From a virus: DNA of 64,000 bases. Shown piece after piece: positions 3,591 to 54,072 of the stretch. The DNA is taken from positions 1-64,000 of the IMG/VR virus record IMGVR_UViG_3300005826_000069. One strand, 5' to 3'. The notes beneath the pieces were generated by a model that was given only the letters and a program-made list of their open reading frames with translations, was not told the DNA's origin and ran no database searches. The position numbers and the translations under genes are program-made. The number at the start of each line of letters is the position of its first letter. Position 1 is the stretch's first letter.

Positions 3591-3992
3591 TTAGGTGTCT
3601 CTCAGGTACATTTCCACTGAAACCCCATCATCGATATTGATGTTCCCAGTGCCAGTAAAAACGTATCTGCTGTAGTTGGCAATCGTGTAGTTCGGGTCGT
3701 ACGTTGATAGCGTTGGGCGATCCAGACCATTGATTGTCAGCCCGGTAATGAACGTCGATCCAAGCGCTGACGTATCCATCAGAATCTCGATGGCCGCCGT
3801 GGCCCCTTCATTAGGATCGTCCCACCTGACTGAGTGGATAGTCTCTGACTTGTAAGCACTTGGTGTCATGTCGGCGGTATCCGCGCCAACCTTCGCATCG
3901 CCTGAATAAAGCTGAGACGTGAACGCAATAAGCGTGCCCGGAGGCTTCGCAGATGCGCCCAGCAAAGGTGCTCCCCACGTTCCTGCGGTCAT
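3591..3992 (-). CDS. Beta-rich tail-fibre-associated protein, 133 aa
   Basis: Begins at MTAGTWGAPL, where the ATG overlaps the tail-fibre gene's stop as ATGA; a longer upstream reading is only a shadow of that gene. The sequence is Thr/Ser/Gly-rich with alternating hydrophobic residues, ending in strands like YSRYVFTGTGNINID, as in short fibre or baseplate-type proteins. Immediate coupling to the large fibre gene suggests a partner, cap or receptor-contact protein. No named family recognised. Confidence 0.65.
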   Translation of the reverse strand: MTAGTWGAPLLGASAKPPGTLIAFTSQLYSGDAKVGADTADMTPSAYKSETIHSVRWDDPNEGATAAIEILMDTSALGSTFITGLTINGLDRPTLSTYDPNYTIANYSRYVFTGTGNINIDDGVSVEMYLRDT

Positions 3993-38500: not shown

Positions 38501-38553
38501 TGTGAATCTCGTTATCACAAAGTGTTGACACACATCCCGTGGAAGTGTAAGCT
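38501..38553 (+). promoter_or_regulatory. Promoter with inverted-repeat operator
   Basis: TTGACA, 17 bases, TAAGCT form a sigma70-type promoter. Directly upstream TGTGA and TCACA (bases 38501-38505 and 38515-38519) are an inverted repeat with 9 bases between. The block AAGTGTTGAC with a matching inverted repeat recurs at 41.8 kb, so a shared regulator is likely. Confidence 0.7.
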
Positions 38554-48467: not shown

Positions 48468-48662
48468 TTATTCCGCAGAATGGCTTTTCTGGTAGGCAGG
48501 CACCAAGCGGACCTCGCGAACTCTCAGCGTACCGGGCTGGATCGGAGGGAATTTGTTTGCGCTGTCCGCGACGGGGAGGTAGACTTTCCGCGTCGGGAAA
48601 TGTTCAGGCGGCAAACCTTTCCACTTCTTCCCGATCACGGCCCGGTTGAGTTCTTCGCTCAC
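48468..48662 (-). CDS. Small hypothetical protein, about 64 aa
   Basis: A GTG start (SEELNRAVIGKKWKG) is preferred over a TTG further upstream that overlaps the HTH gene. Basic, with LPPEHFPTRKVYLPV and LRVREVRLVPAYQKS. Start and function uncertain. Confidence 0.4.
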   Translation of the reverse strand: MSEELNRAVIGKKWKGLPPEHFPTRKVYLPVADSANKFPPIQPGTLRVREVRLVPAYQKSHSAE

Positions 48663-48678
48663 CGGGCCGAATCTTTTT

Positions 48679-48996
48679 CTACGCCCGTTTCTTTTTCTTG
48701 TCAATCTTGGGTGAGCTGGTCTTGACCTGCTGCACGTCTGAGTACAGGTCGATAGGATCGAGCGGGTAATTATTTTCTTCTGCGAGTTGAAGCAAGCGCA
48801 TCAGTGTGCGCCCACCGGGTCGGCTCCTGTTCGCTGTTTCCCAAACACGAAGCGTTGCCGGACACACGCCGACGAGTTCTGAGAATTCTGTTCTATTGAG
48901 GCGAAGCTCTTCGCGAAACCTGCGCACGGCGTTTGGATGTAATGGCGCTGAGTTGGTCCTGAGTATCGGGCGGAATCGCTTCTGGCTTTTGCTCAT
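48679..48996 (-). CDS. HTH transcription regulator, 105 aa
   Basis: Starts MSKSQKRFRP, 9 bases after GGAG. Residues 24-56 (VRRFREELRLNRTEFSELVG, then PATLRVWETANRSRP) form a helix-turn-helix of the xre/HigA-like type with recognition helix PATLRVWE. The C-terminal 30 residues are Lys-rich. Being divergent from the 49.1 kb plus-strand promoter, it is the best candidate for the regulator that binds the shared operator pieces. That link is inference. Confidence 0.7.
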   Translation of the reverse strand: MSKSQKRFRPILRTNSAPLHPNAVRRFREELRLNRTEFSELVGVCPATLRVWETANRSRPGGRTLMRLLQLAEENNYPLDPIDLYSDVQQVKTSSPKIDKKKKRA

Positions 48997-49090
48997 AACG
49001 GATGTCTCCATGTCCATGATCTGCTCTCTGACGTGTGTTTAAGGTTGATAAAATACTTGGGGTTCGAGTGAACGAGTTTAGCATCAAGTG

Positions 49091-49119
49091 TTGACTCTGT
49101 TCCACACTGGGCGTAATCT
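49091..49119 (+). promoter_or_regulatory. Promoter for the 49-55 kb plus-strand block
   Basis: TTGACT, 17 bases, TAATCT, preceded by AAGTG as in the two operator-linked promoters. Upstream there is no full TGTGA-N9-TCACA, only AACGAG and TCAAGTG pieces. The 165 bases after it, up to the first gene, hold no gene I can see. Confidence 0.65.
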
Positions 49120-49285
49120 TCGTTTCGTGCCCGAGGTCGGAGTCAAAGGGTTATCCTCCTAAGATGCTTCCCTTAGACGTTCATTGAAGACGAGGTTGGT
49201 CACCGGAGGCTTGCTAAGGCCGCTCGCACGTTGCTGAAATACATGTCGGTTCCCGGCGCGAAGATTCAGAAACTGAGGAGGCGCG

Positions 49286-49483
49286 ATGACTGACAACCTG
49301 ATAGGGAAACGCGCCTTAGTACGGCTCTCTAGTGCGCCTGATGACATGCTTAATGGTACAGTCCTGTATAGACCGCAAACAATCGGGGATTGCTGGATCA
49401 TTCGTGACGATGCTGGATGCACGTTTTACGTCCAATCATACCAATGGGTTATGTTTCGTCTAGGGGATGATTTAAATGACTGA
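49286..49483 (+). CDS. Small beta-barrel-like protein, 65 aa
   Basis: Strand pattern LIGKRALVRLSSA, GTVLYRPQTIGDCWIIRDD, CTFYVQSYQWVMF suggests an SH3-like small barrel. GAGGAGG before the ATG. Not recognised. Confidence 0.6.
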   Translation: MTDNLIGKRALVRLSSAPDDMLNGTVLYRPQTIGDCWIIRDDAGCTFYVQSYQWVMFRLGDDLND

Positions 49484-49655
49484 CCAAGCGAGCAACTTAG
49501 TATTAAGGGCGATGGCATGGGAGCGAGCAAAGGGAGAGCTTCGGTCTATCACTGCCGCCTATATGCACGAAGAAGAAAAATTTAATCAGTGGCTTGAGAA
49601 GGTTGAGCAGTTTATTCAGGAAGTTGAGGATTACGCGATTGGCGGGCTTGGATAA
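49476..49655 (+). CDS. Small helical protein, 59 aa
   Basis: Starts MTDQASNLVLRAMAWERAKG, in a frame that overlaps the previous stop by 8 bases. A single long helix (EEKFNQWLEKVEQFIQEVE). Function unknown. Confidence 0.55.
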   Translation: MTDQASNLVLRAMAWERAKGELRSITAAYMHEEEKFNQWLEKVEQFIQEVEDYAIGGLG

Positions 49656-49675
49656 ATTTCATTAGGAGAACAGCC

Positions 49676-49915
49676 ATGACTGACGTGTTCGTGGTAATCA
49701 CCGATAACGAGACTTGGGCTGGCAACATCAAGCCGCATCAGGCGCTGGCGAAGTACCGTGAGGCGACTGGTATTCCAGCCAAGCTGATCGTAATGGGCGT
49801 GACCGCGACCCCGTTCACCATCGCTGATCCGAATGATGCGGGGATGCTCGACATCGCCGGGTTCGATTCTGCGGTGCCTGCGCTGGTGGCTGACTTCATT
49901 CGGGAGGGCTTGTGA
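49676..49915 (+). CDS. C-terminal vWA piece of a Ro60/TROVE protein, 79 aa
   Basis: The whole length matches the end of Ro60/Rsr proteins: VFVVITDNETWAG (residues 4-16), ALAKYREATGIPAKLIVMG, FTIADPNDAGMLD and AGFDSAVP. These are the last strands and helices of the von Willebrand A domain. The TROVE ring that binds Y RNAs and the D-x-S-x-S metal site are absent. It has its own GGAGAAC ribosome site, so it may be expressed. Either a remnant of a full gene or a stand-alone fragment. Confidence 0.8.
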   Translation: MTDVFVVITDNETWAGNIKPHQALAKYREATGIPAKLIVMGVTATPFTIADPNDAGMLDIAGFDSAVPALVADFIREGL

Positions 49916-50457
49916 TGAAACAGTTGATCATCCATCCCGAAGACAGGAGCACGATCTTTTTGTCGCGACTGTACAGGGACCTGCCGGACGCAACTATTGT
50001 GACCGGCGGGGTTCCCCGTGCGCACCTGCGCAAAATGATCGACCAGCATGATCAGGTCATTATGATGGGGCACGGGTCTCCCTACGGGCTTCTGTCCGTG
50101 GGGAGATTCAATGGCCATGGCTATGTCATCGACGACAGCTTTGCTGGACAGCTGTCTGAGCGCGATAACTCGGTGTTTATCTGGTGCAACGCTGATGCTT
50201 TCGTGAAGTGGCACCGTCTGCGCGGGTTCTATACCGGGATGTTCATCAGCGAGAGCGCCGAAGCCCATATGTGCGGCATCCCTGTGGCCCGTGAGGACGA
50301 GATCGAGGAGTCCAACGATACCTTCATGGATGTTGTCGGGCGGTTCATCAGGCACGAGCCACGGCTGATCTGGGCGGCAGCTCGCCATGAATATGGAAAG
50401 CTCGCCCAGAGGAACCCGGTTGCCGCCTATAATCACAGGCGTTTGTATCTCAGCTGA
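49915..50457 (+). CDS. Possible caspase-fold protein, 180 aa
   Basis: TGATG overlap with the Ro60 piece. A strand VIMMGHGSPYGLL has His53-Gly54 and a later strand VFIWCNADAF has Cys91, in the order and spacing of the His/Cys dyad of clan CD (caspase-like) peptidases. FMDVVGRFIRHEPRL follows near the end. The substrate-side Asp pattern cannot be judged. It could also be an inactive relative. Pairing with a Ro60 fragment is unusual. Confidence 0.45.
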   Translation: MKQLIIHPEDRSTIFLSRLYRDLPDATIVTGGVPRAHLRKMIDQHDQVIMMGHGSPYGLLSVGRFNGHGYVIDDSFAGQLSERDNSVFIWCNADAFVKWHRLRGFYTGMFISESAEAHMCGIPVAREDEIEESNDTFMDVVGRFIRHEPRLIWAAARHEYGKLAQRNPVAAYNHRRLYLS

Positions 50458-50468
50458 CCCCGCCCTGA

Positions 50469-50616
50469 TATAGCAATTTGTGTTGCTTTCGTTAGCACAA
50501 CCTGCTATATATGAATTGCCACTGGAGACAGCTGCGTATAAGGCAGCGCCGACTCCTCCCGTGTTGGTTCTTGGGTTCGACCCAAGGAGAGCAGGTAACC
50601 ACCCCTGCCCAGTGGC
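50469..50616 (+). ncRNA. Structured RNA candidate upstream of the exonuclease gene
   Basis: First hairpin: TATAGCAATTTGTG pairs with CACAACCTGCTATA (12 of 14). Then an 8-bp closing stem GCCACTGG (50518-50525) with CCAGTGGC (50609-50616) encloses four small hairpins: GCTGC/GCAGC, CCGAC/GTTGG, TTCTTGGG/CCCAAGGA with a TTCGA loop, and GCAGG/CCTGC. Such a multi-branch RNA may be a leader switch for the recombination genes or a small RNA linked to the Ro60 piece. Confidence 0.45.
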
Positions 50617-50640
50617 ACTATTCATTGAAGGAGGCACACC

Positions 50641-51579
50641 ATGTCATTGACCAAAGAGCAGGTCGAGTTCCGGAAGTCCGGACTCGGAGGTTCGGATGCC
50701 GGGATTGTTCTTGGCGTTTCCAGTTACAAAGACCCGCTGACGCTGTATCTGGAGAAGCGCGGCGAAGTTGAAATCCCTTACGTGGAGACGCGCTTCCAGC
50801 GCTGGGGACATCTGCACGAAGAGTCTATCGCGCAGGCATACATGGAGGACACCGGATACAAGGTCGTCCGCTCGAATATCTCCCACCGATCCAAAACCCA
50901 TCCGTTCATGATCGCCCATCTGGACCGAAAGGTGCGGAAGGCCCCGAACAAGCGCCTGCTTGAATGTAAATCCAGCGCGCTGATATGGGAGTGGGGCGAG
51001 GCTGGCACCGAGGACATCCCCCCTTCCTACATGGCTCAGTGTCAGCACTATCTGCATGTCACCGAGTCCGATCAGATCGATGTTGCTGCCCTGCTTGGCG
51101 GTAACGACTTCCGCATCTACCCGATCATGCGCAACGAGAACTTCATCAAGCTGCTCGTGGAGGCGGAGGAGGAGTTCTGGGATCGCGTGCTGGCGGGGGT
51201 CAAGCCTGCCGCAGACTGGGAGTCAGCGTCCACCACGCGGCTCCTGACGCACCTGTATCCCGGCACCAACGGCAGTGTCGTGCGCCTGCCCCCGGTCGCC
51301 CAGAAGTATCACGAGGTGTGCGCTGACGCGAACACGCAGAAACTGATGTACGAGAAGGTCGTCACCGGGTGCCAGAACCGGATCAAGATGATGATGGGCG
51401 AAGCGTCTGTCGGCATCCTCCCTGATGGCACGATCTATACTCGAAAGGAAGTCCAGAGAAAGGGCTTCACTGTCGAGCCTACCTCGTACATGTCATTCAC
51501 GCACACAACCAGAATTCCGAAAGACGTGCAGACCGCTATCGCTGATGGCACTGCACCACTTGTTACTGTAGACGATTAA
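50641..51579 (+). CDS. YqaJ-type recombination exonuclease, 312 aa
   Basis: Lambda-exonuclease-like fold: GLGGSDAG (residues 14-21), GHLHEE (Glu60), AHLDRK (Asp95), LLECKSS (Glu108-Cys-Lys110), and QCQHYLHV (Gln133-x3-Tyr137). These are the five motifs of the YqaJ viral recombinase family. It digests one strand of DNA ends so that RecT, encoded about 1 kb downstream, can bind. GAAGGAGGC precedes the ATG. Confidence 0.9.
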   Translation: MSLTKEQVEFRKSGLGGSDAGIVLGVSSYKDPLTLYLEKRGEVEIPYVETRFQRWGHLHEESIAQAYMEDTGYKVVRSNISHRSKTHPFMIAHLDRKVRKAPNKRLLECKSSALIWEWGEAGTEDIPPSYMAQCQHYLHVTESDQIDVAALLGGNDFRIYPIMRNENFIKLLVEAEEEFWDRVLAGVKPAADWESASTTRLLTHLYPGTNGSVVRLPPVAQKYHEVCADANTQKLMYEKVVTGCQNRIKMMMGEASVGILPDGTIYTRKEVQRKGFTVEPTSYMSFTHTTRIPKDVQTAIADGTAPLVTVDD

Positions 51580-52644: not shown

Positions 52645-53448
52645 ATGAATAACGAAACATCAGTTCCGGCGAGGCTGCCGGAGAACACCCTGTCAAACGC
52701 AGAACATCGCTTCGAGATGGCGCAGAAGATCGCGGCCAAGCTCGCAGCGTCATCGCTGGTTCCTGACGCATATCGTAACAGGCCGGAGGATGTGTTCGTC
52801 GCCATCCAGATGGGACACGAGGTAGGGCTGGGTCCATTCCAAGCCGTCCAGTCCATCGCTGTGATCGACAACAAGCCGTGCCTGTGGGGCGACGGCATGA
52901 TCGGTTTGGTGCGTGGCTCCGGGAAGTGTGAGTACATTCAGGAGACGTGGGACGACGCGACCAAGACCGCGACCTGCGCAACGCTGCGCAAGGGAGAGAA
53001 AGAGCCGCAGGTTCGCAGCTTCTCCCTGCAGGACGCTGCACTCGCCCAGCTGACCAACAAAAACAACTGGAAGAAATACCCGGCCCGGATGTGCCAGATG
53101 CGCGCTCGCGCATGGGCGTTGCGTGACACCTATGCTGACGTGCTGCGTGGTCTGGCCTCAGCGGAAGAGGTCCGTGATATCCAGCAGGTCGAGGTCGAGG
53201 AGGAGCTTCCGGAGATTCAGGTTGAGGCTGAACTGGCCAAGGATGCGCCGCTGATCGATGACGTTATAGACGACATCGCAGAGGCCCAGACCATGGCCGA
53301 TCTCATCAAGGCTGGAGATAAGGCCAAGTCCCTGTGGCACGTTGATGATCAGGAGGCCGCTCGCAAAGCCTACAAGGCCCGTCGCGAAACGCTGATAAAG
53401 GAGGCCAAGGATGCGGAAGAGAGCGCCGATAAAGCACCGGGGAAGTAG
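52645..53448 (+). CDS. recT: RecT-family annealing protein, 267 aa
   Basis: Matches RecT: FVAIQMGHEVGLGPFQAV, then IDNKPCLWGDGMIGLVRGSG and a basic/aromatic stretch NWKKYPARMCQMRARAW. The last 80 residues are acidic then helical. It anneals ssDNA made by the YqaJ exonuclease, giving phage recombination and repair of concatemers. CTGAAGGAGGCAA leader. Confidence 0.85.
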   Translation: MNNETSVPARLPENTLSNAEHRFEMAQKIAAKLAASSLVPDAYRNRPEDVFVAIQMGHEVGLGPFQAVQSIAVIDNKPCLWGDGMIGLVRGSGKCEYIQETWDDATKTATCATLRKGEKEPQVRSFSLQDAALAQLTNKNNWKKYPARMCQMRARAWALRDTYADVLRGLASAEEVRDIQQVEVEEELPEIQVEAELAKDAPLIDDVIDDIAEAQTMADLIKAGDKAKSLWHVDDQEAARKAYKARRETLIKEAKDAEESADKAPGK

Positions 53449-53662
53449 CTTTGTTTATGGCGCACGGTACGTGAAGAAGCCGGACTCGAAGTCCGATATC
53501 TATCACATCATTGCCGTGCGCCAGCCGAAGGATTCCACTGGGCCGAACGCGCGCGGGTATCTGGCCTGTGGGGCTATCTATCAGCGCTACTACTTTGATC
53601 AAGAGCACAAGACCCCGCCATCGGGAATGCGGTGCTGCAAGAATTGCGACAGGAGACGATGA
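53411..53662 (+). CDS. Small Cys-rich protein, 83 aa
   Basis: Starts in the end of the recT gene (38-base overlap). Contains YGARYVKKPDSKSDIYHI, ACGAIYQRYYFDQ and CCKNCDRRR. Possible zinc site. Stop overlaps the SSB start. Confidence 0.5.
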   Translation: MRKRAPIKHRGSSFVYGARYVKKPDSKSDIYHIIAVRQPKDSTGPNARGYLACGAIYQRYYFDQEHKTPPSGMRCCKNCDRRR

Positions 53663-54072
53663 TGCCAAGCCTGAACAGAATCATGATTATGGGACATCTG
53701 GGTGGCGATCCGGACGTGCGTTATTTGCCGTCCGGCGCTCAGATCACGACGTTCTCTGTTGCCACCACAGAGAAGTGGACGGATCGGGACACTAACGAGA
53801 AGCGAGAGCGAACCACATGGCACAAGGTGGATTGCTTCGGCGGTACTGCGGAGTTCGCAAGCAAGCACCTGTACAAGGGGCAGCTTGTCTATGTCGAAGG
53901 CAAGCAGTACCACGAGCGGATCGAGCGCGATGGCGTCGTCCGCTACTTCGCGTCCATCAAATGCGATGAGCTGAAGCCTCTGCAGTGGCGCGATGACAAC
54001 TCGCCCCGCCCAACGAAGCAGCAACCAGAGGGTCGTCCACAGCCAGCGCTGGATGACGACATACCATTCTGA
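53662..54072 (+). CDS. ssb: Single-stranded DNA-binding protein, 136 aa
   Basis: OB-fold SSB: LNRIMIMGHLGGDPDVRYL, TFSVATTEKWTDRDT, then TTWHKVDCFGGTAEFASKHL and YVEGKQYHER. It ends in DDDIPF, the acidic tip that binds partner proteins in bacterial SSBs. Of two adjacent ATGs the second has the better spacing (GGAG then 6 bases). Covers ssDNA in replication and RecT recombination. Confidence 0.9.
   Translation: MPSLNRIMIMGHLGGDPDVRYLPSGAQITTFSVATTEKWTDRDTNEKRERTTWHKVDCFGGTAEFASKHLYKGQLVYVEGKQYHERIERDGVVRYFASIKCDELKPLQWRDDNSPRPTKQQPEGRPQPALDDDIPF

Follow-up and report, generated by a model that had tools for sequence, protein, structure and literature searches.

A structured, probably tRNA-like RNA directly ahead of the recombination exonuclease gene in a group of phages

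What is the structured, non-coding stretch of DNA that lies between a piece of a Ro60 gene and a recombination exonuclease gene in an uncultured virus? A preliminary description of this locus, drawn from the window (the whole 64,000-nucleotide stretch of DNA analysed, part of a 68.6-kb uncultured virus record), had noted at 50469-50616 a hairpin followed by a stem around further hairpins, and had offered two options, a Y-like RNA or a leader of the exonuclease gene. The interval is non-coding, lying between the stop of an ORF at 49912-50457 and the exonuclease ATG at 50641, and the features that concern us here are as follows.

49676..49915, + strand: 79-aa ORF holding the C-terminal half only of a Ro60 vWA domain (Pfam vWA_Ro60 E 4.9e-33, positions 92-165 of 165)
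50469..50511, + strand: imperfect inverted repeat over a promoter-like site (position and motif common to relatives)
50518..50617, + strand: probable tRNA-like RNA (fold z -4.8; compensatory changes over 11 sequences; best match of covariance model R1)
50628..50634, + strand: Shine-Dalgarno-like AAGGAGG for the exonuclease gene, its first base 11 nt past the last base of the RNA
50641..51579, + strand: RecE/YqaJ-type recombination exonuclease gene (Pfam YqaJ 5.9e-30; PHROG 434 7.9e-71)
52645-53448: RecT-like annealing protein (PHROG 561 2.1e-41)
53632-54072: SSB (Pfam 3.6e-25)

We find that 50469-50616 folds with a minimum free energy of -62.8 kcal/mol against a mean of -41.6 kcal/mol for dinucleotide shuffles (sd 3.65; z -5.8), an energy equalled by 0/200 of them, and that the minimum free energy and centroid structures of this interval are the same. 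The second element by itself (50517-50617) still stands at z -4.8 against shuffles, and the closing stem of 8 bp described earlier is borne out, enclosing exactly four hairpins in non-coding DNA. The structured RNA at 50518-50617 is real, and in the window its parts are these.

50518-50525 with 50609-50616: closing (acceptor-like) stem, 8 bp, with a possible extra pair U50517-A50617
50531-50547: D-like arm
50548-50568: middle hairpin, at the anticodon position
50569-50587: variable-arm-like hairpin, CUUGGG-UUCGA-CCCAAG
50591-50608: T-like arm, the fourth hairpin
50617: discriminator-like A, the base after the closing stem

Relatives were sought in viral and genome contigs using the exonuclease and a phage Ro60 as queries, and ten further distinct sequences were found with an RNA in the corresponding place, preceded by a promoter palindrome and followed by the YqaJ exonuclease gene (L004, L005, L006, L007, L009, L030, L034, L037, L043 and L146, whose contig is binned as a Desulfuromonadales MAG). 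Each of these has a closing stem of 7-8 bp, several inner hairpins and a T-arm-like last hairpin (5 bp in most) that adjoins the 3' strand of the closing stem, while the middle hairpins are free to vary in length and sequence; in L146 and L030 the inner arms rest on comparison, because single-sequence folding prefers another inner fold. For the 11 sequences together we assembled by hand, from chosen arms, a core alignment of the closing stem, D-like arm and T arm, in which the closing stem and T arm are fixed by position. For 16 of its 18 pairs at least one sequence has both partners changed, and compensatory cells number 48, compared with 13.8 on average in shuffles and no more than 9 when partners are slid by 1-3 columns; 91.9% of the cells are paired, a percentage that is inflated because the arms were hand-chosen (by eye for the D arms of L006 and L009). 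Where the preliminary description had allowed for uncompensated breaks in the stems of relatives we observe the opposite, stems kept by compensatory change. The RNA family itself is well supported, and the homology of the window copy, like the membership of L006 and L009, is likely from position and anatomy together. Other routes to relatives gave less: the phage collection searched held no DNA-level homolog and just 26-bp chance matches, a T-arm pattern scan of viral contigs returned, beyond the known loci, unrelated sequence only, the 181-aa upstream ORF (49912-50457) as query found no relatives, and the 79-aa Ro60 piece found four distant loci and no close relative of the window phage.

Covariance model R1, built from four sequences, detects the unseen L004, L030, L034 and L037 at E 2e-8 to 1e-5 (339 kb), and a search of 1.06 Mb of other DNA yields a single match with E up to 5, to a related phage's class II tRNA-Tyr. 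Its best match in the 2-kb locus of the window is exactly 50518-50617 (E 0.025), and in larger searches the window copy has no significant R1 score. A second-round model, R2, gives the window copy 13.5 bits and rank 3 in 34 kb, which is not significant without position, and it did not lift the window copy, L006 or L009 to significance. An extra R1 match in the related 70-kb phage record G010 was considered as a second copy of the RNA and rejected, as it is one of two real tRNA-Tyr genes; these lie adjacent to each other in that record, with encoded CCA (L244, G010:C1:50600-50950).

Judged from sequence, the RNA is built like a class II tRNA that lacks an anticodon. The arms run in the order acceptor, D-like arm, middle hairpin, variable-arm-like hairpin, T arm and acceptor, and similar to class II tRNAs (Tyr, Leu, Ser, and Sec with its 8-bp acceptor) the RNA has an acceptor-like stem of 7-8 bp, a D arm, a long variable arm, an A after the stem, and a 5-bp T arm that directly or almost directly adjoins the acceptor 3' strand, the T loop being 7 nt in relatives (TTGGATT, TTAAAAC, CGCGATA). 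In the window the T stem is present with a loop of 8 nt, UAACCACC. The A directly 3' of the closing stem is found in 11/11 sequences; the next base is T in nine of them and C in two, and U-rich sequence lies 3' of the A in most relatives. The hairpin with the TTCGA loop, which had been likened to a T arm, is indeed present but occupies the variable-arm position. Unlike class II tRNAs, the RNA lacks an anticodon arm with its 7-nt loop, both in the window and in the folds of relatives, encodes no 3' CCA, and carries a putative C19-G56-like swap. The hairpin at the anticodon position varies, with a GUAA tetraloop in L146, GCGA in L006 and a 9-nt loop in the window, and the RNA should therefore not decode. 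A TTGGATT T loop and a GGCA D loop occur together in 8 of the eleven sequences, a pairing consistent with a tRNA elbow in which C19-G56 would replace the usual G19-C56 (tRNA numbering); this elbow is not proven, because both motifs are invariant within the eight. L009 has the T loop CGCGATA, with C at the elbow position, and the D loop AAGGGA, and the D and T loops of the window copy are without GGCA and TTGGATT.

Comparison with known RNA classes placed the RNA in none of them. The covariance check with YrlA and tRNA models that had been proposed earlier gave no Rfam match for it: searched to E 10, Rfam 15 matches none of ten such RNAs, the window copy among them, and the Rfam tRNA and tRNA-Sec models do not match. 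Three candidate identities were rejected. As a plain tRNA the RNA is not reported by ARAGORN in the window or in relatives, and is drawn as one only with relaxed scores and false introns; as a tmRNA it is not reported at normal settings, with one implausible relaxed match in L005; and the sole Rfam match to the window region, a glycine riboswitch (RF00504) aligned over the closing stem and first hairpin, scores 12.4 bits (E 8) where the cut-off is 32 and is due to chance. We also weighed an explanation in which the tRNA likeness is meaningless: either a tRNA gene has degenerated, or a plain structured stabiliser of the 5' UTR blocks 5'-end-dependent decay with its +1 stem. The freely varying middle hairpins and the window copy without elbow motifs would suit this explanation, and the true class II tRNA-Tyr genes of related phages are a possible origin, but we hold it to be improbable: a T arm of 5 bp and 7 nt beside the acceptor strand, GGCA/TTGGATT in 8/8 and the A in 11/11 exceed what a plain stem needs, and the compensatory change argues against decay.

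The proximity of Ro60 makes a Y RNA the natural alternative. That a Ro60 piece adjoins the RNA holds true: the 79-aa ORF shares 59% identity over 76 aa with the full-length phage Ro60 of L006, and it is either a remnant or a stand-alone mini-protein, with no TROVE domain in the 68.6-kb record. The ORF has its own AGGAG site, similar to the one that precedes the exonuclease in relatives. That phages can carry Ro60 genes is already known: TROVE proteins have been noted in jumbo phages (PMC7824862), and actinophage records annotate Ro60 genes. Several relatives carry a full Ro60 gene, and in seven of them Y RNAs lie upstream of it, about 4-6 stem-bulge modules in tandem with a YrlA-like one at the end. 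The Rfam YrlA matches just upstream of Ro60 have E 9e-6 to 0.05, under the curated cut-off, and are preceded by stem-bulge modules (GAGCCGGAUG..GUUAUC..AACAUGCUCG). R3, a model of the phage group's own Y modules built from 14 modules, detects about 4-6 in most Ro60 phages and three in L146, of which only the matches other than those 14 are independent because the 14 served to build it. The arrays upstream of phage Ro60 are these.

L021, 4323-4980: Y-module array
L023, 4212-4760: Y-module array
L025, 4497-4960: Y-module array
L026, 4409-4960: Y-module array
L027, 4025-4560: Y-module array
L030, 4212-4980: Y-module array
L146, 3114-3700: Y-module array

The inner arms of these modules differ, and some are tRNA-derived (GTTCGATTC..CTCCA). 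One module in L005 (E 0.004) and in L009 (E 0.1) also matches RF01656, a nematode sRNA family (possibly a stem-bulge RNA). The window has one doubtful counterpart of such a module.

49091..49178, + strand: possible decayed remnant of the relatives' first Y module (TTGACT-17-TAATCT at 49091-49119, then GCCCGAGGTCGGAGTCAAAGGGTTATC)

The best R3 match in 48600-50700 falls here (49136-49178, 10.1 bits, E 0.052 in 2.1 kb), and the fold of 49091-49178 is unsupported, with z about +1. The putative remnant sits behind a promoter-like site, GTGTTGACT.

Similar to YrlA (RF02553) and other bacterial Y RNAs, the RNA ahead of the exonuclease is a probable tRNA mimic near a Ro60 gene. YrlA, in contrast, is a permuted tRNA-like domain on a Ro60-binding stem, and the RNA at 50518-50617 has no such stem: the Ro60-binding stem-bulge motif (CCGGAUG..GUUAUC / AACAUG) is absent from its base, R3 reports no match to it, and its arms follow the tRNA order rather than the permuted one (T arm, acceptor, D arm). 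True YrlA-like RNAs sit elsewhere in the same phages, in the separate arrays upstream of Ro60. The RNA and Ro60 occur together in seven loci; the RNA occurs without Ro60 at the site in L004, L034 (no Ro60 in 70 kb) and L037, and beside a fragment only in the window; and it is absent from L042, which has Ro60, and from L002, L003, L038 and L041/L223, which do not, counts that give no clear link. On this evidence, together with the lack of any YrlA match, the Y-like option of the preliminary description did not hold up, and we consider it likely that this is a tRNA-like RNA and not a Y RNA. That the RNA is a second Y RNA, a divergent one bound by the phage Ro60, would fit its position right after Ro60 in 7/8 Ro60-bearing loci, and two Y RNA genes are possible near one bacterial Ro60 gene, as in Salmonella rsr-yrlBA (PMC7790460), but the missing stem-bulge motif, the silence of R3 and Rfam, the unpermuted arms, and the occurrence of the RNA without Ro60 and of Ro60 without the RNA make it very improbable.

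The first hairpin asks for a separate explanation. The 12-of-14 bp hairpin at 50469-50509 is present as had been described, but its membership of the RNA is not upheld, as the repeat of relatives coincides with a promoter. The window and its relatives share the inverted repeat motif TAGCA..GTGTTG..TTTC..AGCAC..TGCTATA, and in relatives this palindrome bears sigma70-like hexamers, TTGAAA/TTGATT/TTGACT-16 nt-TATAAT/TATACT/TAAACT (e.g. TTGAAA-16-TATAAT). The corresponding sites in the window are weak, with 7/12 promoter consensus positions, and a consensus scan does not list them.

50483-50488: promoter-like hexamer TTGCTT
50506-50511: promoter-like hexamer TATATA, 17 nt after the first

Because the repeat of relatives coincides with a clear promoter, we read the first hairpin as regulatory DNA sequence, and the inverted repeat at 50469-50509 is, on this comparison, most likely operator/promoter DNA and not part of the RNA. 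A terminator was rejected here, there being no T run after the hairpin and the promoter hexamers coinciding with it in relatives. An HTH gene upstream on the opposite strand (48679-49017) is a candidate regulator. The first paired base of the RNA lies 6-10 nt past the -10 box in most loci (6 in the window), the exceptions being L030, with a distance of 20 nt, and L004, with a promoter about 190 nt upstream of the RNA; in L007 the scan chose another hexamer pair, and a TATACT box lies 6 nt before the RNA. Elsewhere in the window a repeated promoter/operator-like motif, ATCAC-AAA-GTGTTGAC, is found at 38522, 41839 and 49088 (TAGCATCAAGTGTTGAC at 49088), the first two copies shortly before ORF starts. 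In addition, L004 (about 3668-3853) and L042 (upstream of its promoter) share a stretch near the promoter, ..GGGAAGKTGAGGCTCTGRCGATYCG..CGAAAAGC.., which has no Rfam match (L004) and is possibly another RNA.

The other option raised at the outset, a leader for the exonuclease gene, stays viable, with the RNA directly upstream of that gene. The distance from the RNA to the exonuclease ATG is 23 nt in the window, and in every locus the RNA lies within about 25-60 nt of the exonuclease start. The best reading, which we put forward tentatively, is that the RNA is a tRNA-mimicking 5' leader of the recombination operon. Transcription would probably begin 6-7 nt past the -10 box, at the first paired base of the acceptor-like stem, so that a non-decoding tRNA-like RNA would form the 5' end of the transcript for exonuclease, RecT-like annealing protein and SSB, with the operator palindrome at the promoter controlling the operon. 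In the folded leader the acceptor and D-like arm would be followed by a variable hairpin that stands in for the anticodon arm, then by the variable-arm-like hairpin and the T arm; this 5'-terminal clamp and tRNA mimic could protect the 5' end of the operon mRNA, and might recruit a tRNA-handling host factor, e.g. a tRNA-processing nuclease, to cut off or hold the leader, or alternatively serve to evade such a factor. The start site, elbow, cotranscription and function of the leader are what we infer here. tRNA mimics are already known as a kind, and the E. coli thrS operator is a tRNA-like mRNA leader. Similar to it, the phage RNA would place tRNA mimicry in a 5' UTR near a start codon; unlike it, the phage RNA has a whole tRNA outline, starts at the predicted +1 and is followed by no synthetase gene.

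The main rival to the leader reading is a small RNA that acts in trans: the tRNA mimic would be freed from the leader, or end at a terminator, and the exonuclease would be just its neighbour. Such an RNA would be a decoy or scaffold for a tRNA-binding host factor, e.g. RNase P/Z, an enzyme that modifies tRNAs or a defence nuclease that targets them; with no anticodon loop, it is unlikely to lure anticodon nucleases. The tRNA-like architecture kept by compensatory change speaks for it, as does the A followed by a U-rich 3' flank in most relatives, which resembles the 3' ends of CCA-less pre-tRNAs. Its optional presence also fits an accessory gene: the exonuclease operon occurs without the RNA in L002, L003, L038, L041/L223 and L042, where the RNA is thus dispensable. 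This dispensability counts against the leader reading, as do the weak promoter hexamers, the D and T loops and the model scores of the window copy. On the other hand, the stretch from the RNA to the exonuclease showed no terminator-like site in the window or in L023, and the short distance to the exonuclease start is kept in every locus, so that we consider the trans-acting RNA possible yet somewhat unlikely. A small hairpin of the type CACTGG-TTGT-CAGTG lies just 5' of the exonuclease Shine-Dalgarno in relatives (e.g. L007 3960-3985); it is also kept in loci without the tRNA-like RNA and is absent from the window. A wider proposal joins the tentatively favoured leader to its neighbourhood: anticodon-less tRNA mimics with a swapped elbow pair, set in an operator-promoter/operon cassette, would cooperate with or descend from the neighbouring Ro60 system, whose one transcript would carry 4-6 tandem Y-RNA modules with different, partly tRNA-derived arms. 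As a whole we regard this as unlikely.

Taken together, the locus holds a structured RNA family with strong compensatory evidence and no Rfam 15 match, in phages that have no DNA-level relative in the collection searched. The tandem Y-module arrays before phage Ro60 make the role of Y RNA side arms directly testable, with one protein facing several arms. If the RNA is a true tRNA mimic at the start of the recombination mRNA, it would be a testable case of a phage using the tRNA-handling machinery on an early mRNA, for its processing or protection.
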